In this document: one piece after another, positions 31,543 to 44,879 of the stretch
How the letters are laid out: the number at the start of each line of letters is the position of its first letter
How positions within the stretch are numbered: position 1 is the first letter of the stretch
Assembly: GCA_019637095.1 (NCBI GenBank)
Contig: JAHBWG010000030.1
Span: forward strand, 1 to 64,000
Direction: 5' to 3'
DNA length: 64,000 bases
Source: Sandaracinaceae bacterium
GTDB taxonomy: Bacteria; Myxococcota_A; Polyangia; Polyangiales; Sandaracinaceae
The notes under the pieces: model-generated
Told to the model about the DNA's origin: nothing
What the model saw: the letters and a program-made list of their open reading frames with translations, nothing else
Database searches by the model: none
Translations under genes and position numbers: made by a program

Positions 31543-31546
<4 letters not shown>
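31007..31546 (-). CDS. Small lipoprotein coupled to sigma-54 activator gene
   Basis: This 179-residue protein starts MTNGMIRVLCLAALAASTGC (lipobox Cys20). It has no recognised domain. Its Cys-containing C-terminal half has two copies of the segment DPSPQPST, encoded by near-identical 24-bp DNA at 31053 and 31146. Its ATG overlaps the stop of the large STAND/sigma-54 activator, so it is made from the same transcript. A link between the lipoprotein and the activator's signal is possible but is inferred from coupling alone. Confidence 0.7.
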
Positions 31547-35442
<3,896 letters not shown>

Positions 35443-35490
35443 GCGGGGGGCCTCGAGCGCGTGCGCGTCCGCACGGCTCTGTGGTGGCGC

Positions 35491-35519
35491 AGCGTAGGGG
35501 GTGCCCGCCGCGCGTTCAA
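35491..35519 (-). promoter_or_regulatory. Sigma-70 type promoter TTGAAC-17-TACGCT
   Basis: On the minus strand, TTGAAC (35514-35519) and TACGCT (35491-35496) are separated by 17 nt. Initiation would give a leader of about 42 nt before the ATG at 35442. The promoter lies inside the longer open frame, which argues against starts near 35586. Confidence 0.5.
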
Positions 35520-35643
35520 GCAGCCCCCGGAGCCCCGCATCGTAGAGATGCCGCATCTCCATCATCCCCGCGCGCACGGAGTGCACGATTCGTTCCCGGG
35601 GAACGCGCCCGTGGATCGAGGGGGCGTGTGCGGGATCTTACGG

Positions 35644-35711: not shown

Positions 35712-37118
35712 TCACGAGCGATAGTCGTCGATGTCGATCGCGTATCGCTTGAGCCAACGGTGGACCTGCATGCGCTCCTTGCCGAGCTCGCGCCCGACCG
35801 CGGCGATGTTGCCCCGATGCCGGATCAGCATCTCGCGGAGCTCCCCCTCGGTCGGCGGCCCGCCCCGCCCGACGTGCATCGGCGGCGGCGGGACCGACGC
35901 CGTCCGGCGTGCCCCGCTGGCGCCGTGGCCGGTGAGCGCCTGGCGCACCGACTCGGGGAGGTCGCCGAGGTCGAGCTCGGCGCGCCCCTCGGAGAGCGCG
36001 ACCGAGAGCTTCACGGCGCTCTCGAGCTCGCGCACGTTGTAGGGCCAGCGATAGTGCGCGAGGCCGACCATGTACGGGAGCGAGACGGTGGCGTCTGCGC
36101 GGCCCGCCCGCGCGAGGAAGGACCGCGTGAGCGGGTAGAGGTCCTCGCGCCGCTCGCGCAGCGGAGGCAGCCGCGCGGTGAACTCGCGCAGACGCGCGAA
36201 GAGATCGCCGCGGAAGGTCCCCCGCGCGACCAGCTCCTCGAGGTCGCGGTGCGTCGCGCACACCACGCGGACGTCGGCGTCCTCGGGGGTCGTCGCGCCG
36301 ATCGGCAGGACCTTGCGCTCCTGCAGGACGCGGAGCAACTTGGCTTGCGCTTCGAGCGGCATGTCGCCGATCTCGTCGAGGAACAGCGTCCCGCGGTGCG
36401 CGGCCTTGACGAGCCCGACCTTGTCGCTCACCGCGCCGGTGAACGCGCCCTTGCGGTAGCCGAAGAGCTCGCTCTCGATGAGGTTCGCGGGGAGCGCCGC
36501 GCAGTTGATCGCCTGGAACGGCCCTTCGCGCTCGGACGCGGAGTGCACCGTGCGCGCGACGAGCTCCTTGCCGGTCCCGCTCTCGCCGGTGACGATGACG
36601 GACAGCTGCGTCTTGGCGACCTTCGCGACCCGGTCCAGGAGCTGATCGATCTGGAAGCCGCCGATCAGCGGGCAGCCCGTGATCCCGTGGCGGATCGGGC
36701 GCGCGGACTCGACGACCGTTCCGTCGATGCGGTAGGCGCCGTACCCGTAGACCCCGTGGTCGGCGAAGCGCAGCAGCGTGTCGCCGACGCGGATCACGTC
36801 GTGCGGCTCGAGGGCGGCCGCGGCGACGCGGGCGCCGTTGACGAGCACGCCGTTGGTCGAGCCGTTGTCGACGATCCAGCAGCCGTCGGGGCGGCGCTCG
36901 ACGCGGCCGTGGTAGCGGCTCACCGCGGCCTCGGGGATGCACAAGACGTTGTCGGGCTCGCGGCCGAACGTGGTGACGGGCGACGCGAACGGGACGGCGG
37001 ACGGAAGCTGCCGGTGCAGGCGCGAGTAGATCAGCACCATCCCCGGCGTCGGGTCCTTCGTCGCCTCGATGGCCGGGATGGCCTCGATCGAGGCGGTCGT
37101 CCATCCTTCGTTGCTCAT
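35712..37118 (-). CDS. FHA-domain sigma-54 enhancer-binding protein
   Basis: This 468-residue protein has an N-terminal FHA domain for phosphothreonine recognition (FGREPDN about 51-57, SRYHGRV 67-73, DNGSTNGVLVNG 84-95). A sigma-54 AAA+ domain follows, with Walker A GESGTGKE at 178-185, GAFTGA at 224-229 and LFLDEIGDM. A Fis-like DNA-binding helix-turn-helix is at the end (RGNIAAVGRELGKERMQVHRWLK). FHA-type activators are a myxobacterial speciality, linking Ser/Thr kinase signalling to sigma-54 promoters. The ATG at 37118 gives a clean start; frame open upstream overlaps the divergent gene. Confidence 0.92.
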   Translation of the reverse strand: MSNEGWTTASIEAIPAIEATKDPTPGMVLIYSRLHRQLPSAVPFASPVTTFGREPDNVLCIPEAAVSRYHGRVERRPDGCWIVDNGSTNGVLVNGARVAAAALEPHDVIRVGDTLLRFADHGVYGYGAYRIDGTVVESARPIRHGITGCPLIGGFQIDQLLDRVAKVAKTQLSVIVTGESGTGKELVARTVHSASEREGPFQAINCAALPANLIESELFGYRKGAFTGAVSDKVGLVKAAHRGTLFLDEIGDMPLEAQAKLLRVLQERKVLPIGATTPEDADVRVVCATHRDLEELVARGTFRGDLFARLREFTARLPPLRERREDLYPLTRSFLARAGRADATVSLPYMVGLAHYRWPYNVRELESAVKLSVALSEGRAELDLGDLPESVRQALTGHGASGARRTASVPPPPMHVGRGGPPTEGELREMLIRHRGNIAAVGRELGKERMQVHRWLKRYAIDIDDYRS

Positions 37119-37182
37119 CGCCGGGCGCCCGTGAGGGTAGCAGCTTCGCGCGCCCAGGTGCGCACCGGCGTCACGCGGAGGG

Positions 37183-37188
37183 CATACT
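37183..37188 (+). promoter_or_regulatory. Candidate -10 CATACT, leaderless
   Basis: CATACT is followed by 6 nt and the GTG at 37195, matching the spacing seen before other genes in the window. Confidence 0.4.
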
Positions 37189-37194
37189 GCGGTC

Positions 37195-37821
37195 GTGATC
37201 GGCCGACCCGCGCTCCGGGTGGCGTGCACGCTCTGGCTCGCCGCGTGCGCCGGCGGCGCCCGCGCGCCCGCGCCGCGCGCCCCCGAGCCGTCGCGCCCTG
37301 CGCGCGTGACGCGTGCCGAGCGCGCGCCGGAGGCGCCGCGGGCGCTCGCGCCGCTCGACGGTGCGCCCGCCGCGGTCGAGGCGCTCGAGGACGGGCCTCG
37401 CACGCTCCACCTCGTCCTCGAGGCGGGGCGCTGTTACCGCGTGCTCGCCGAGGCGGTCGGGGCGATCTCCGTCGAGCTCGTCGACGAGCACGCCCACCCG
37501 CTCGCGGACGGCGCGGGGGGCCGCGTCGTCCTCGACGGCGTCTGCCCGCGCTGGTCCGGCTCGTTCGAGCTGCGGGTGCGGGTCGAGGGGGCGCCCGCGC
37601 GCGTCGCGCTCTACGAGGAGGAGCTCACTGCGTCGCGGTCGTCCTCGTCGCCCAAGAGCTCCTCGACGACGCGGTGGAGCTCGGCGAGCTCGAACGGTTT
37701 GGTGAGCAGCGCGTCGGCGACGCCGTCGTCGAGCTGCACGTCCGCCGAGCCCGTCATCACGAGGGCCCGATCGATGGCGTCGCGCTCGCGGAGCACGCGG
37801 AGCAGCGCGTCACCGCGGTGA
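37195..37821 (+). CDS. Short lipoprotein overlapping the convergent hybrid kinase gene
   Basis: The 208-codon frame starts at a GTG with the lipoprotein signal MIGRPALRVACTLWLAAC (Cys18). An Ala/Pro/Arg-rich linker and a beta-rich region with two Cys follow (about 75-140: LHLVLEAGRCYRVLAEA, GVCPRWSGSFELRVRVEG). The last 70 residues are Ser-rich and lie antisense to the end of the hybrid kinase gene, so they may be a by-product of a lost stop codon. The first 140 residues look genuine and are supported by a CATACT element. The function is unknown. Confidence 0.55.
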   Translation: MIGRPALRVACTLWLAACAGGARAPAPRAPEPSRPARVTRAERAPEAPRALAPLDGAPAAVEALEDGPRTLHLVLEAGRCYRVLAEAVGAISVELVDEHAHPLADGAGGRVVLDGVCPRWSGSFELRVRVEGAPARVALYEEELTASRSSSSPKSSSTTRWSSASSNGLVSSASATPSSSCTSAEPVITRARSMASRSRSTRSSASPR

Positions 37822-39071
37822 TCGCCGAGTCCGAGGTCCACGATCGCGAGGTCGAAGCGCCGCTGCTCCGCGCGCTCGAGCGCGGCCGCCGGCGAGGTCG
37901 CGACCTCGACGAACGCGCCGTGCAGCTCGAGCGCCGTGCGCACCAGCGCGCCGATCGCGGCGTCGTCGTCCACGACGAGGATGGCGCGGTAGGCGAGCGG
38001 CGGCCGCTCGCGCACCCCGCTCGAGCGCGGGCCCGCCCCGACGATGCGCGGCGGGCGCATGCTCATCGGCGCGCGGCCGACGAGGGGCAGCGCGACCTCG
38101 AAGCGGGTCCCTCGACCGGGCTGGCTCCGCACCTCCACCCGGCCGCCCGCCTCGTGGACCGTGTCGCGGACCATCGCGAGGCCCAGCCCCGTCCCGGCGT
38201 CCTTCGTCGTGAAGTACCGGTCGAAGGCGCGCTCGAGGGTCTCGCGGCTCATCCCGGGGCCGTCGTCCTCGATGACGAGGACGAAGCGCTCCCCGTCGCG
38301 GTGCATCCCGACCGCGATGGTGCCGCCCGGCTCGAGCGCTTCGACCGCGTTGCGCACGAGGTTGCCGACCACGAGCCGGAGCGCGGCGGGTGGGGGGGCG
38401 CCCAAGAGCTGTTCGGGCAGCTCGGTCGAGAGCGTCAGGCCGCGGGCCTCGACCTCCGGGCGCAGCGTCTCGAGCACCTCGCGGACCACGGCGGCGCTGT
38501 CCGTCGGCTCGGGCGCGCCGGGCGCGATGGTCCCGGGCGTCGCGTCGCGCATGGTGCGCAGCAGACCGCGCGCGCTCTCGAGGGCCTCGCGGGCGCTGCG
38601 CTGGACGACCTCGAGCGCGTGCCGGGTCCGGTCGGGGAGGGGCGCGCTCGTGGAGGCCATGCGCGTCCAACCGGCGATCGCGGTCAGCGAGTTGGCGACC
38701 TCGTGCGTGACGCCAGCCGCGTGATCCGCGGCGGCCGCCCTCCGTACGAGCGTCGCCGGGTCGACGCGCGGCGCGTACAGCACCGCGATCCCGTCACGCT
38801 CCGGCCAGGCCATGAGGCGGCCGGTCGCGGTCTCCCCGCCCTCGCCGTCGAGCTCGATCGCCGCGGGCGCGCCCCGGCGCGGGTCCTCGAGGACCTCCGA
38901 GATCCAGGACGCCTCGCAGCCAGCGAGGGCGGCGAGCCGCTCTTCGAGCGTGCCCTCGCCCGGCAACGCGCCAGCGACCACCTCCACGGTTCCGTCCGCG
39001 GCCGCACGCACGAGCGTCAACGAGAGCTCGTTGGCGATCCAGGTGACGAGTTCGGGTGAGCTTGGAACCAT
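37611..39071 (-). CDS. Soluble hybrid histidine kinase with C-terminal receiver
   Basis: This 486-residue protein has no membrane segment. An N-terminal sensory region (1-105) precedes a HisKA-like box, GVTHEVANSLTAIAGW, with phosphoacceptor His123 in an HExxN variant. HATPase motifs follow (VRNAVEAL, EDDGPGM, GTGLGLAMV). The receiver has the acidic pair DDD at 368-370, phosphoacceptor Asp412 (AIVDLGLGD), Thr440 and Lys458 (LLTKPF). It starts at the ATG at 39071; the longer GTG start would place a TATCCT promoter element inside the gene. Its output partner is unknown, though it lies in a block of regulators. Confidence 0.87.
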   Translation of the reverse strand: MVPSSPELVTWIANELSLTLVRAAADGTVEVVAGALPGEGTLEERLAALAGCEASWISEVLEDPRRGAPAAIELDGEGGETATGRLMAWPERDGIAVLYAPRVDPATLVRRAAAADHAAGVTHEVANSLTAIAGWTRMASTSAPLPDRTRHALEVVQRSAREALESARGLLRTMRDATPGTIAPGAPEPTDSAAVVREVLETLRPEVEARGLTLSTELPEQLLGAPPPAALRLVVGNLVRNAVEALEPGGTIAVGMHRDGERFVLVIEDDGPGMSRETLERAFDRYFTTKDAGTGLGLAMVRDTVHEAGGRVEVRSQPGRGTRFEVALPLVGRAPMSMRPPRIVGAGPRSSGVRERPPLAYRAILVVDDDAAIGALVRTALELHGAFVEVATSPAAALERAEQRRFDLAIVDLGLGDHRGDALLRVLRERDAIDRALVMTGSADVQLDDGVADALLTKPFELAELHRVVEELLGDEDDRDAVSSSS

Positions 39072-39145
39072 TCGATGCCGCGCGAAGGATATCCGCACCT
39101 GCGGAGCGGCTCAAGCGCTGCGAAGCGCGCTCCGACCCGCTCGGC

Positions 39146-39157: not shown

Positions 39158-40243
39158 ATGTCGAGACCCGAGCTCTCTCGCGCCCCGCTGAGCGGCGCGT
39201 CGCAAGGCTTCTTCGCGCTCGAGCTCGAGCCCGAGACCTTCGAGGTCGTCATGCTCGACCAGCGCCGGCTGCCGACCGAGGTCGTCTACCACCGCTACCG
39301 GCGCCCGGACGAGATCGCCGAGGCGATCCGCGCGATGGTGGTCCGAGGCGCGCCCGCGATCGGCATCGCGGCGGCCTACGCGCTCGCGCAGGTCGCGCGC
39401 GATCAGGGCGGCGACGCCGCCAGCTTCCTGGTCGCGAACGGCGCGGCGGGCCGTGTGCTCGAGCGGACGCGGCCGACCGCGATCAACCTCGCGTGGGCGA
39501 TCGCCCGGATGAGCCGGCGGGCGGCCGAAGTGGCGCGCGAGCCGCCCGCGGTCCGTGCGGGCGCGATGCGCGAGGAGGCCGAGGCGATCCATCGCGAGGA
39601 CGTCGCGGCGTGCCGGGCGATGGGCGCGCTCGGGGCGGCCGACGTCCCCGAGGGGGCCACGATCCTCACGCACTGCAACGCGGGCGCGCTCGCGACGGGC
39701 GGCTACGGGACCGCGCTCGGGGTCGTGCGCGCCGCGCACGAGGCGAAGAAGCGGGTCCGCGTGCTCGCGTCCGAGACGCGCCCCTACCTCCAGGGGGCGC
39801 GGCTCACCGCGTGGGAGCTCCACGCCGACGGGATCCCGGTCGAGGTGATCACGGACGGGATGTCCGGCGCGCTCTTCGCCGCGGGCGAGATCGACTTCGT
39901 CGTCGTCGGCTCGGACCGAATCTGCGCGAACGGGGATGTGGCGAACAAGATCGGGACGTTCACCCACGCGGTGCTCGCCCACGTCCACGACGTCCCGTTC
40001 ACCGTCGCCGCGCCGTGGAGCACGGTCGACCTCGCCTGCGCCTCCGGCGCGGACGTGCCGATCGAGGAGCGCTCGCGCGACGAGGTGGCGCGGATCGGCG
40101 AGCACGTCATCGTCGCCGACGGCATCGGCTGCCGTCACCCCGCGTTCGACGTCACGCCCGCGCGCTACGTGCGCGCCGTCTACACGGAGCGCGGTCGCTT
40201 CGGGCCGAGCGCGGGTGAGGGGCCGCGGAGCCTGCTCGCGTGA
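39158..40243 (+). CDS. mtnA: S-methyl-5-thioribose-1-phosphate isomerase
   Basis: This 361-residue enzyme of the methionine salvage pathway converts methylthioribose-1-phosphate to the ribulose form. Recognition is clear: [15 protein letters not shown] near residue 62, the catalytic Cys173 in [14 protein letters not shown], and Asp253 in [27 protein letters not shown] closes the protein. The length matches the family (about 340-370). Its stop overlaps the GTG start of the M19 dipeptidase gene (GTGA), an odd operon partner, and no other salvage gene is in the window. Confidence 0.94.
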
Positions 40244-41529
40244 GACCGTCGGGCGGCCGCGCGTGGCTCGCGATGGCGCTGTGGACCGTCGGGTTCACCG
40301 CGTGCGGAGAGCCGCCGGCCGGCGCGCCGCCGCCCGCCGCGCCCATCGCGGCGGGCGAAGCGCCGGTCGAGCGCTCCCCCGCGGAGCCCGCGCCGAGCGC
40401 GGTTCCGGCCGGATCGCCCGCGGCGCCCGTCGAGCCGGTGCTGCTCGCGATCGACACGCACGTCGACACGACGCAGCGGATGCTCGACGAAGGCGACGAC
40501 CTCGCGCAGGAGCTGCCGAACGGGCACCTGGACCTGCCGCGGATGCGCAGGGGCGGCCTGCACGGCGCGTTCTTCAGCATCTGGGTCGACCCGCGGGAGC
40601 ACGAGGGGGAGGCGGCCTGGGCGCGGGCGCTCGCGCTGATCGGCGCGGTCGAGGCGCTCGCGGCGCGCCACCCGGCCGAGGTCGCGATCGCGCGCACCGG
40701 GGACGAGGTGCGCGCGGCGCAGGCGTCGGGCCGCGTCGCGCTCCTGATGGGCATCGAGGGGGCACACGCGTTCGGCGCGCCGGCCCGAGACGAGGTGCTC
40801 TTCGAGCGCCTGCGCGAGGCGCACGCGCGCGGCGTCCGATACCTCACGATCACCTGGTCGAACGACAACCGCTTCGGCCACTCGTCGAGCGGGCGCGCGC
40901 CCTCGCGTGGGCTCACGCCGCTCGGGCGACGACTGATCCGGGAGCTCCACGCGCTCGGCGTCATCGTCGACGTCTCGCACGTCTCCGACCGGACCTTCTG
41001 GGACATCGCGGCGATCGCCGAGCGCCCCCTCCTCGCCTCTCACTCCTCGTGCCGCGCGCTCTCGGCGCACCCGCGCAACGTCACGGACCCGATGATCCGC
41101 GCGATCGCCGAGGGTGGCGGCGCCGTGTGCATCAACTTCTATACGCGATTCATCGACGCGGAGTACGCGGCGCGCCGCACGGCGCTCGAGTCGAGCCACC
41201 GCGCGCGGTTCGCGCAGCTGCGGCGCGAGCACGAGCGCTGGGATCGCAGCGAGCCGCAGAACGCCCTCGCGCGCGCGCTCGGCGGCGAGGCGCTCGGGGT
41301 GCCCACGCTCGAGACCCTCGGCGCGCACTTCGCGCACGCGGCTGCGATCGGCGGCCCCGGCGCGGTCTGCCTCGGCTCGGACTTCGACGGCGTCGGCGAG
41401 CTGCCGCTCGGGCTCGAGGACGTCGCGCGGCTCGGCGCGTTGCGCGCCGAGCTCGAGCGGCGCGGGCTGCCGCTCGGGCCGATCCTCGGCGAGAACGTGC
41501 TGCGGGTGCTCGACGCGCAGCGCGAGTGA
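40240..41529 (+). CDS. Lipoprotein membrane dipeptidase (peptidase family M19)
   Basis: This 429-residue protein starts at a GTG overlapping mtnA. The signal ends VGFTAC (Cys22), followed by an Ala/Pro linker of about 40 residues. The M19 zinc motif HVD lies in [10 protein letters not shown] near residue 71. Other family blocks are [13 protein letters not shown]-like [34 protein letters not shown], and [17 protein letters not shown] near the C-terminus. It probably hydrolyses dipeptides or D-amino-acid dipeptides at the cell envelope. The translational overlap with mtnA suggests cotranscription, though no metabolic link is known. Confidence 0.9.
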
Positions 41530-41563: not shown

Positions 41564-41572
41564 CGCGCCGCC

Positions 41573-42214
41573 ATGAACACCGACCCCGTCGCCTTCGTCC
41601 GTGATGACTTCGTCCGCCTCTTCAACACCGGGGTCGCCGCCTACAAGGCCCGCGGGGAGGGCGGCGACGAGAAGGCGAAGGCCCGCTACGCGGACATCGC
41701 GTCCGCGCGCGGCAAGGTGCTCGTCCGGTTCGAGGGAGACGGCGGCGGGACGCTCTGGCTCTCGGTGAAGGACGGCGTGATGACGCTGCACGACGCGGAG
41801 CCCGCGGAGCTGCCTGCGCGGCTCGCGATCGCCGCGCCGGCGGACGCCGCGCGGGCGGGCCTCGAGGAGCTCGCCGAGCACTTCGACGAGGAGAAGGCCG
41901 CGCGCCGCTTCGCGCGCGCCGCGTCCGGCGAGGTCGAGAAGGTGCTCGAGGGGCATCAGCTCCGCTTCCACGTGACGTTCACCGACCTGCCCGCGGATCC
42001 CGACGAGGTGACGCTGCGCATCGCGATCGGGGCAGCCGAGCCGCCGGAGCAGCCGACGTTCAGCGCCACGGTGAGCTGGGACGACATCGAGGACGTGCGC
42101 GCCGGGGAGCTCACCGCGCAGCAGCTGTTCGGGCGGCTGCGCATCGCGGGCGACGCGACGCAGGCGATGGCGCTCGGCATGACGCTCATGCAGCGCCGCC
42201 AGCAGGCGCGCTGA
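41573..42214 (+). CDS. SCP2 sterol-binding-domain protein
   Basis: This 213-residue cytoplasmic protein has no signal. The C-terminal two thirds fit the SCP2/sterol-carrier fold. The segment TFSATVSWDDIEDVRAGELT and the following AQQLFGRLRIAGDATQAMALG carry the typical family ending (D-x-x-x-G-x-x-xP/A-x-x-A-F-xxG-K/R-x-x-I-x-GD). Such proteins bind lipids or acyl-CoAs in a hydrophobic tunnel. It has its own short-leader TATACT promoter, 43 bp after the dipeptidase gene, and a hairpin downstream. The ligand is unknown. Confidence 0.82.
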   Translation: MNTDPVAFVRDDFVRLFNTGVAAYKARGEGGDEKAKARYADIASARGKVLVRFEGDGGGTLWLSVKDGVMTLHDAEPAELPARLAIAAPADAARAGLEELAEHFDEEKAARRFARAASGEVEKVLEGHQLRFHVTFTDLPADPDEVTLRIAIGAAEPPEQPTFSATVSWDDIEDVRAGELTAQQLFGRLRIAGDATQAMALGMTLMQRRQQAR

Positions 42215-42350: not shown

Positions 42351-43604
42351 ATGAGCGCGAAGGTGGACGTCCCGCTCTACATCGTCGTCGGCCGCTCCGA
42401 GGACTGCGAGCTCCAGCTCGCCGACCCGAGCGTCAGCGGTCGCCACGCGAAGCTGAGCTGGCGCGGGCAGGCGATCCTCGTGGAGGATCTCGGCAGCGCG
42501 AACGGGACGTGGGTGGACGGGCGCAAGGTGCACCGCGCGGAGGTTCGCCCGGGCGCCGAGGTGACCTTCGGCAACGCCACCCTGTCTTGGAGCCACCCGG
42601 CGCTGAAGCAGTTCCTCCGGCGTGGCGCGCGCGGCGACACCCTCATCGGCGTCCGCATCCCCGGGCGTCGCTTCATCTGCGGCTCGTGCGGCTCGCGCGG
42701 GATCATGCCCGAGGGGTTCGCGCGCGGGCAGCTGAAGTGCGGCAAGTGCGGGGTCGAGCTGCAGGTCGGTCCTCCCTCGCGCGCGCGCAGCGTGCTGGGC
42801 GTGAGCGCGGCGCTCGTCGCCCTCGCCGCCATGGTCGTCGTCGGCGTCTTCGCCTGGCAGGACGAGACCACGTCGAGCGGCTTCCGGCGCGCCGCCGAGC
42901 GGCTCGGGCTCTCGCACGCGCGCGACGATCAGCCCGCCGCCACTTCGCCGCAGGAGCGATCGATCCGCGCGCGGATCGCGCCGCGGGTGGTCGCGGCGAT
43001 CGATCCGACCCACGCCGTGACCCGCCGCGAGGCGGTGCGCCTCGCCTCCGAGGACGAGGGCCCGTTCAAGGTGGAGCAGGTCGCTCGCATCTGGACGAGC
43101 GTGCGCGAGCGCTGGCGGTACGTGAACGACCCGCGCGGCGACGAGTACTTCTCGGTGGCCAGCGAGACGCTCTCCAACGCGAGCGAGGAGGGCCAGCTCG
43201 CGGGCGACTGCGACGACTTCGCGATCTTGCTCGCGGCGATGATCGAGTCGATCGGGGGCGAGGCCCGCATCGTGATGCTCGACGGCGACCAGGGCGGCCA
43301 CGCGTACACCGAGGCGTGCATCCACGAGGACGCGCAGGAGGTCGCGCGGCGCCTCTCGCAGCACTACCGGCGCAACTGGAGCCGGTATCTCGGCAACCAG
43401 CGCATCACGAACATCCACTTCCGCAGCTCGCCGGACTGCCCGGTGTGGCTCAACCTCGACTGGAACGCGCGCGTGCCTGGGGGCCCCTACGGCCGCGAGT
43501 ACTGGGCGGTCGCGATCTACCCGGACGGGCGCACCGAGACCCTCGCGCCATCGGTCGGCGCGGCCGGGGACACGCCCGTGCCGAACGCCTCCGCTGCGCC
43601 GTGA
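42351..43604 (+). CDS. FHA-zinc ribbon-TM-transglutaminase-like fusion protein
   Basis: This 417-residue protein has four parts. Residues 1-85 are a compact FHA domain (GRSEDCELQLADPSVSGRH, DLGSANGTWVDG). Residues 108-136 are a zinc ribbon with Cys110/Cys113 and Cys130/Cys133. One transmembrane helix lies at about 148-168. The C-terminal transglutaminase-like domain has an apparent triad of Cys287 (AGDCDDFAILLAAMIES), His317 (QGGHAYTEA) and Asp370 (WLNLDWNAR). By topology the FHA domain would be cytoplasmic and the protease or transferase domain periplasmic. This would be a phospho-signal-to-envelope device, but that is inference. The catalytic role (amidase, protease or transferase) is unknown. 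Confidence 0.83.
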   Translation: MSAKVDVPLYIVVGRSEDCELQLADPSVSGRHAKLSWRGQAILVEDLGSANGTWVDGRKVHRAEVRPGAEVTFGNATLSWSHPALKQFLRRGARGDTLIGVRIPGRRFICGSCGSRGIMPEGFARGQLKCGKCGVELQVGPPSRARSVLGVSAALVALAAMVVVGVFAWQDETTSSGFRRAAERLGLSHARDDQPAATSPQERSIRARIAPRVVAAIDPTHAVTRREAVRLASEDEGPFKVEQVARIWTSVRERWRYVNDPRGDEYFSVASETLSNASEEGQLAGDCDDFAILLAAMIESIGGEARIVMLDGDQGGHAYTEACIHEDAQEVARRLSQHYRRNWSRYLGNQRITNIHFRSSPDCPVWLNLDWNARVPGGPYGREYWAVAIYPDGRTETLAPSVGAAGDTPVPNASAAP

Positions 43605-43670: not shown

Positions 43671-44879
43671 ATGCTCACGCACCGCCGCGCTCGCACGCTC
43701 TCGCTCGCCCTCGCCTTCGCGGCGCTCGGCACCGCGCTCGTGGGCCGCGCACAGGACGCACCCACGGACGATGACGGCGGCGCGGCACCCGGTGGAGTCG
43801 AGGGGCTGCAGGGCTCGCCACCCGATGGCTCGAGCTCGGAAGGCGAGCCCGCGCTCGTCGCGCCGTCGCTCGACGCCGCCGACGACGCTGCGAGCGCGCC
43901 GGCGTCCGGCGAGGGCAACGACGCGGCCTCGCCGCTCGCGACGCCGGAGCTGGTCGAGCCGCTCGACGACGCGCTGGAGGAAGAGGCGGCGGAGCTCCCG
44001 GCGCGCGCGGTCCTCGGGGGCACCCCACGCCACCTCCTCGGCGGCGCGTTCACCGCGTGGGCGGAGCTCGGCTTCTCGGGGGCCGGGCGTGGCGACGTGC
44101 GCGCCGACTTCCTGTTCTCGCCCGAGCTCGGGGTTCGCTTCCGGCCGGACCGCGGGCTCTACGCCGCGGCCGCGTTCGGCTTCAGCGCGGCGACCACGTC
44201 GGTGGCGGGCGAGGTGATGGCGGCGGGCGAGCTCATGTCGTTCCGCGGCAACCCGACGCGCACCGAGCCGGGTAACCCGACGATGGAGCTCGGCTACTCC
44301 GGCGCGATCTCCGACCAGCTGCGGCTCGAGGTCGGCCTCGGCGCGGCGATCCCGGCGTCCGCGCGCGCTCAGGTCGGCACCGATCCGCCGACGCTCGCCG
44401 AGCGCGCGGGCTCCGAGGCCGCGGTGCGTGCGGCGATGGCCGCGCGAGGCTACTGGTCGCTCTGGGCGTGGGCCCCGGAGCGCTTCGCCCTCTACGTGCC
44501 GGTGCGGCTCGCCGCCAACGCGGGCGGGCTCCTGTTCGAGGGCGAGCTCGGCCTGGGCGTGTTGATCCCGATCCTGGGAGACCGCGGGATCGACACCGAC
44601 GTCGTCGTCCAGCTCGCCGGCGGCGTCGGTGGCGAGCTCACCGAGCGCTTCGCCCTCGGCGCGCGGGTGCGCGGCGTCGGCGCGCCCGCCGGCAGCACGC
44701 TCTCCGGCGGGGCCGGCTCCGACGTCGCCTTCTCGGTCGAGCCGTGGGCGCGGCTGCGCCTCGACCCGGTGCAAGTCACCTTGCGCGCTTCGATGACGCT
44801 CGACGGCCCCGACGGGCTCGCGGGTGACCGCGCGCCGCCGTTCGGCGTCTTCGCGGGCGTCGGCGGCGAGGTCGACTGA
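43671..44879 (+). CDS. Outer-membrane beta-barrel-like protein
   Basis: This 402-residue protein has a signal peptide (TLSLALAFAALGTALVGRA) and an acidic, Ser/Asp/Glu-rich low-complexity segment of about 85 residues. A C-terminal region of alternating beta strands follows (GVRFRPDRGLYAAAAFGFS, RLEVGLGAAIPASARAQV, VVVQLAGGVGGELTERFAL). The composition and strand pattern suit an outer-membrane barrel, but it ends GEVD without the usual terminal Phe. It lies 66 bp after the FHA/transglutaminase gene and may share its transcript. No family is recognised. Confidence 0.68.
   Translation: MLTHRRARTLSLALAFAALGTALVGRAQDAPTDDDGGAAPGGVEGLQGSPPDGSSSEGEPALVAPSLDAADDAASAPASGEGNDAASPLATPELVEPLDDALEEEAAELPARAVLGGTPRHLLGGAFTAWAELGFSGAGRGDVRADFLFSPELGVRFRPDRGLYAAAAFGFSAATTSVAGEVMAAGELMSFRGNPTRTEPGNPTMELGYSGAISDQLRLEVGLGAAIPASARAQVGTDPPTLAERAGSEAAVRAAMAARGYWSLWAWAPERFALYVPVRLAANAGGLLFEGELGLGVLIPILGDRGIDTDVVVQLAGGVGGELTERFALGARVRGVGAPAGSTLSGGAGSDVAFSVEPWARLRLDPVQVTLRASMTLDGPDGLAGDRAPPFGVFAGVGGEVD

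Follow-up and report, generated by a model that had tools for sequence, protein, structure and literature searches.

An FHA domain joined through a zinc ribbon and one membrane helix to a transglutaminase-like domain in a predicted inner-membrane protein of Polyangiales

The gene at positions 42,351 to 43,604 of the window (the whole stretch of 64,000 nucleotides that was analysed, from a Sandaracinaceae bacterium) raises the question of why an FHA domain, a module for phosphothreonine recognition, shares one polypeptide with a transglutaminase-like domain beyond a membrane helix, and whether a kinase signal could in this way be relayed across the inner membrane. The preliminary description of this DNA had read the gene as a single protein with an FHA domain, a CxxC-CxxC zinc ribbon, one transmembrane helix and a transglutaminase-like domain in that order, and the open reading frame, Pfam, the structural model and the orthologues all agree with this order. 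The features are as follows.

42351..43604, + strand: whole gene of the FHA, zinc-ribbon, transmembrane and transglutaminase-like protein; open reading frame with ATG start, 417 aa; same order in orthologues
42375..42590, + strand: FHA domain, residues 9–80, with a short N-terminus; from Pfam, model, structure matches and invariant residues
42639..42641, + strand: Thr97, in the linker after the FHA domain; Thr in 24/24 FHA-bearing rows; candidate phospho-acceptor and putative ligand of the protein's own FHA domain
42669..42767, + strand: putative zinc ribbon, residues 107–139 (C110, C113, C130, C133); from sequence; 20/24 rows
42789..42860, + strand: single transmembrane helix, residues 147–170, predicted N-in/C-out; from model and hydropathy
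42948..43553, + strand: transglutaminase/papain-fold domain, residues 200–401, predicted periplasmic; from Pfam, model and PDB matches
43209..43211, + strand: Cys287, predicted catalytic nucleophile, N-end of helix 287–300; invariant in the 25-row and 30-row alignments
43299..43301, + strand: His317, predicted catalytic; invariant in both alignments
43317..43319, + strand: Cys323; kept, like Cys363, in every row of the Polyangiales family; the two may form a disulfide
43437..43439, + strand: Cys363; invariant in Polyangiales; may pair with Cys323 in a disulfide
43458..43460, + strand: Asp370, predicted catalytic; invariant in both alignments

The FHA domain lies unusually near the N-terminus of the protein. 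A wrong start codon was considered and ruled out, because in-frame stops occur just 5′ of the gene in several orthologues (e.g. L026, L011 and L017), and the short N-terminus is therefore genuine. Pfam FHA (PF00498) matches residues 11–74 with E=1.3e-18 and 67.6 bits against a cut-off of 20.7, the block means of pLDDT over residues 11–80 are 92–97, and the top Foldseek matches of the region are the FHA chains 3poa, 3oun and GarA, in agreement with the β-sandwich fold of the family. PF16697 (Yop-YscD_cpl) passes its cut-off as well (52.3 vs 33.2 bits), but on residues already covered by the better FHA match. The phosphopeptide-pocket residues Gly14, Arg15, Ser29, His32, Asn51 and Gly52 (GR, SxxH and NG) are invariant in 24 of 24 FHA-bearing rows, so that phosphopeptide binding is probably under selection and the domain presumably binds phosphothreonine. 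The zinc ribbon of the earlier reading stood in part: its cysteines C110/C113 and C130/C133 are present, but the protein scores below the cut-off of every Pfam zinc-ribbon model, and the label rests on the cysteine pattern together with the small β hairpins of the model. A hydrophobic helix follows at residues 148–166 (KD 2.64), extended to 147–170 in the full-length model. In that model the FHA domain and most of the enzyme domain are of high confidence and the zinc ribbon of moderate confidence, while residues 96–100 and 171–174 are of low confidence.

For the C-terminal region, Pfam Transglut_core (PF01841) matches residues 236–325 with E=1.4e-8 and 35.4 bits against a cut-off of 23, and is matched in 25 of 25 aligned orthologues. 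The AlphaFold2 model of the isolated domain has a pLDDT of 94.9 and a pTM of 0.92, and places Cys287 at helix 287–300, His317 in strand 315–324 and Asp370 right after strand 365–369, which are the positions expected for such a triad. The numbering of this triad had been given correctly, and the three residues are invariant not only in the 25 orthologues but also in 30 rows across Bacteria and Archaea; Cys323 and Cys363, in contrast, are not kept as a pair in the distant relatives of the 30-row alignment. The best Foldseek matches are the periplasmic protease LapG (4u65, E=1.8e-4) and a putative cysteine protease, and the nearest structures also include the putative cysteine proteases 3isr and 3kd4. 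In VIA, where Z values within 1 of each other are read as tied, 3kd4 is on top (Z 11.8, rmsd 3.0, 147 aligned), LapG 4fgo has a Z of 10.6 (rmsd 3.0, 136 aligned), and human transglutaminases 2, 3 and factor XIII reach a Z of about 11 with 164–180 residues aligned; Rad4/XPC is also found among the structural matches. Structure prediction and structure searches thus both find the papain/transglutaminase-like fold that had been proposed for this region. As modelled, the fold does not separate hydrolysis from transfer. PF06035 (LapG / peptidase C93) has no match in the protein at E≤1. The predicted enzyme is most likely a protease or an amidase-type hydrolase, and from its fold and its place an 'envelope-modifying' role may be proposed.

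The placement of the enzyme outside the cytoplasm is supported more by comparison than by charge. Positive charge is greater on the N-terminal side of the membrane helix in most orthologues, though in the window protein this bias is modest. Relatives of the enzyme domain from archaea, Planctomycetota and Bacteroidota look exported, with signal peptides and lipoboxes called by eye: one (L063) carries a signal peptide and a PGF-CTERM sorting tail (Pfam E=5e-10) around the same domain, two (L064, L066) have lipoprotein-like N-termini ahead of it, another (L070) has a signal sequence and, after that, PKD repeats, and four (L161, L164, L166, L168) have a signal anchor close to the start of the protein, the short N-terminus being basic in the last three. 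Since these relatives carry such N-termini, the enzyme domain most probably works outside the cytoplasm, and the predicted arrangement with the FHA domain inside and the enzyme outside, as first proposed, is well supported by comparison. In Spirochaetota and Saprospiraceae (L071, L074, L076, L083, L089, L094) the enzyme domain is found behind several N-terminal transmembrane helices and a coiled coil.

Of 182 other Polyangiales genomes searched, 24 yielded an orthologue that is complete or nearly so; the named records belong to Sandaracinus, Sandaracinaceae and other Polyangiales/Myxococcota metagenome assemblies, and one genome (G180) has two copies. The bacterium's own genome has one full-length copy; 51 further matches fall on the FHA part, and those examined belong mostly to sigma-54 activators and other cytoplasmic proteins. 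At E≤1e-25 the enzyme subfamily turned up in 25 genomes among 317 of the class and in 14 among 377 sampled from the phylum, all of them Polyangiales and the own genome included in both counts, and presence throughout the Myxococcota was thus ruled out at this threshold. The triad is kept in all 25 aligned rows and the FHA domain in 24; the zinc-ribbon cysteines are kept in 20 of these 24 and are missing in family f3 (L030–L032 and L034). A paralogue (L037) has neither FHA domain nor zinc ribbon, so both are dispensable for the enzyme. When the window gene was compared with five orthologues, dN was below dS in all five comparisons for the FHA domain, linker, zinc ribbon and enzyme domain, and not consistently so for the transmembrane helix, stalk and tail.

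Maximum-likelihood analysis groups the Polyangiales rows in a single clade (support 100/99), with exported proteins of archaea and Phycisphaerae nearby, and a further group is formed by Bacteroidia proteins in which the same transmembrane-enzyme unit follows a zinc ribbon (L160, L163), a GYF_2 domain (L162, L165, L167; Pfam E=6.7e-11 in L067, which is the L162 gene) or nothing but the plain helix. Given the single clade, the FHA fusion is most simply explained as one event in Polyangiales, after which family f3 would have lost the zinc ribbon and the paralogue its FHA domain. The cytoplasmic module ahead of the transmembrane-enzyme unit varies: it is a zinc ribbon, a GYF_2 domain or an FHA domain, the last with a zinc ribbon or alone, and some proteins have no module at all. 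Such exchange would be expected if the module serves regulation or targeting. Between Bacteroidia and Polyangiales the zinc ribbons give only a weak alignment (hhalign probability 54%). The Bacteroidia proteins, which share the unit and have an interaction module but no FHA domain, were not found described in the literature searched; their zinc ribbon/GYF pairing presumably resembles that of GltJ of gliding motility.

The linker is of particular interest. Between Trp80 and the zinc-ribbon region, no residue other than Thr97 is invariant; across the 24 FHA-bearing rows, including those without the zinc ribbon, this threonine is mostly preceded by Asp and always followed by Ile, Leu, Val or Met, and in the full-length model pLDDT falls below 50 around it (residues 96–100). 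As judged from dN and dS, linker residues 81–104 are under a constraint similar to that on the folded domains. In Bdellovibrio DgcB, and in OdhI and GarA, a conserved threonine in a floppy tail becomes, once phosphorylated, a ligand of the protein's own FHA domain (PMC6733907). The protein described here is similar in that an FHA domain, which would control an enzyme or a partner, lies beside a floppy segment with a conserved threonine; however, those three proteins are soluble, have cytoplasmic outputs and carry the threonine N-terminal to the FHA domain, whereas Thr97 is C-terminal to it. Their motif also fits Thr97 incompletely, position +1 being hydrophobic rather than Ser and position +3 being Gly or Ala in most rows. 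Because Thr97 differs in place and partly in motif, it is regarded here as a hypothetical self-ligand.

Kinase genes, which the preliminary description had suggested looking for beside homologues, are not enriched there. A search with 30 kinase queries found a Pkinase match within 8 kb of the orthologue in 4 of 23 neighbourhoods (331 kb), against about 5–6 expected from the 153 matches in the 9.25 Mb of the own genome, and no Ser/Thr kinase within the 64-kb window. At one locus (L053) a kinase (Pfam E=2e-42) lies directly upstream of the orthologue on the same strand. At another (L059:5499-7937, − strand) a kinase-like gene lies divergently upstream, with HGDVEPGN for HRDxKPxN and no DFG, and is possibly a pseudokinase. 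Partner kinases are likely to act in trans, which is easy to accommodate and not specific, since at least 150 Ser/Thr kinase domains and some 50 FHA matches were counted in the genome.

Conserved neighbours of the orthologues include mtnA, an M19 dipeptidase and, named by eye from sequence, a FabH-like protein, an M48-like peptidase and a dynamin-like GTPase. These were set aside as a pathway, for they look like old chromosomal synteny; the variable genes next door have no clear domain. In the window the M19 membrane dipeptidase (40240-41529, + strand) has a lipoprotein-like N-terminus and a 4-base overlap with mtnA, and the two recur near orthologues in several families. The gene is flanked by a gene for an SCP2-like protein (41567-42214, + strand) and by one without a Pfam match (43671-44879, + strand), homologues of which adjoin the orthologue in L040, L054 and L061. 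Two sigma-54 activator genes are found 5–11 kb upstream beside a hybrid histidine kinase/receiver gene (37611-39098, − strand): one (35712-37403, − strand) is of FHA-sigma54 type (FHA E=2e-13) and is conserved at the L051 and L052 loci, close to the orthologue, and the other (31543-35586, − strand) encodes an AAA_16-TPR-sigma54-HTH protein of 1347 aa.

The reading that is tentatively preferred is that of a single-pass inner-membrane protein whose cytoplasmic FHA domain positions or switches a periplasmic Cys-His-Asp enzyme of papain/transglutaminase fold. A Ser/Thr kinase acting in trans would phosphorylate a threonine of a partner protein or Thr97 of the protein's own linker, binding of the phosphothreonine by the FHA domain would change the oligomeric state or the membrane partners, and through this change the action of the periplasmic enzyme on an envelope protein would be controlled in place or time. 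Recruitment or oligomerisation would be needed because the single helix offers no evident allosteric route. The constrained linker with its invariant threonine, the swapping of modules, the precedent of DgcB, OdhI and GarA and the adjacent kinase in L053 count for control by the FHA domain; the lack of kinase enrichment, the imperfect motif and the paralogue without FHA domain count against it. Relay of a kinase signal across the membrane is thus plausible, with the Thr97 switch, the enzymatic activity and the direction of signalling all putative. A more elaborate version, in which phosphorylated Thr97 is bound by the FHA domain of the same or a neighbouring chain and the resulting change of oligomer turns on a LapG-like periplasmic protease, making a one-protein inside-out switch within a wider undescribed family that swaps FHA, GYF_2 and zinc-ribbon modules, is unlikely.

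The main rival of FHA-directed control is a pure tether, in which the FHA domain recognises a phosphorylated machine of the inner membrane or the cytoskeleton (of division, the pole or motility) and parks a constitutively active enzyme there, without any switch. The modules with which the FHA domain is exchanged are both protein-interaction modules, the FHA domain and the zinc ribbon can each be lost, and one helix with a fast-evolving transmembrane and stalk region argues against precise allosteric coupling; the invariance of Thr97 and the constraint on the linker suggest more than passive tethering, and this rival is considered somewhat unlikely. What the enzyme does bears on either reading. 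A true transglutaminase, joining periplasmic proteins to one another or to small amines instead of hydrolysing bonds, would agree with the human enzymes standing among the best structural matches, but Foldseek puts LapG and a putative cysteine protease first and 3kd4 leads in VIA, albeit with tied Z values; transfer is considered very unlikely. Least probable of all is a structural, non-catalytic domain in a scaffold of the YscD/MxiG or GltG kind: the PF16697 score and the match to Rad4/XPC, inactive members of the fold, point that way, yet that profile only overlaps a better ordinary FHA match, no secretion-ring domain was found, and an inactive member would have no need of a Cys, His and Asp conserved from Bacteria to Archaea.

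In YscD/MxiG of type III secretion and GltG of gliding motility a cytoplasmic domain of FHA fold is likewise followed by a membrane segment, and the periplasmic part is structural, in contrast to the papain-fold domain with intact triad found here. Membership of the YscD/MxiG group was ruled out by this fold and the absence of ring-building domains, and membership of GltG by the enzyme domain and an NCBIfam GltG score of 36 against a cut-off of 650 bits. In agreement with the earlier claim that no described system has this exact order, none was found in the literature searched on FHA domains with transglutaminase-like, zinc-ribbon or periplasmic domains, which is weak evidence as subscription papers lay mostly outside its scope; two comparative-genomics papers name both domain types, but not in this connection. 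The architecture is real, conserved in several families and apparently undescribed. Myxobacteria have many Ser/Thr kinases and FHA domains, and to our knowledge few outputs beyond the inner membrane. If the preferred reading of FHA-directed control is true, the protein would connect threonine phosphorylation directly with a periplasmic enzyme in a single chain, and the exchange of FHA, GYF_2 and zinc-ribbon readers ahead of one membrane-anchored enzyme would point to a general regulatory design.

A close parallel in logic is LapD-LapG of Pseudomonas, in which a cytoplasmic signal controls a periplasmic Cys-His-Asp protease of papain/transglutaminase fold (PMC3032545, PMC3032553, PMC4359373). 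As in that system, control would run from inside to outside, and LapG is among the structures nearest to the enzyme domain. In Pseudomonas, however, the c-di-GMP receptor LapD and the soluble protease LapG are two proteins, whereas here the reader is an FHA domain in the same chain as the enzyme. No HAMP, GGDEF or EAL domain of a LapD-type receptor was detected in the Pfam scan of the protein, and its enzyme domain, unlike LapG, has no match to the LapG family. The FHA protein thus resembles LapD-LapG in its logic and is not a member of that system.
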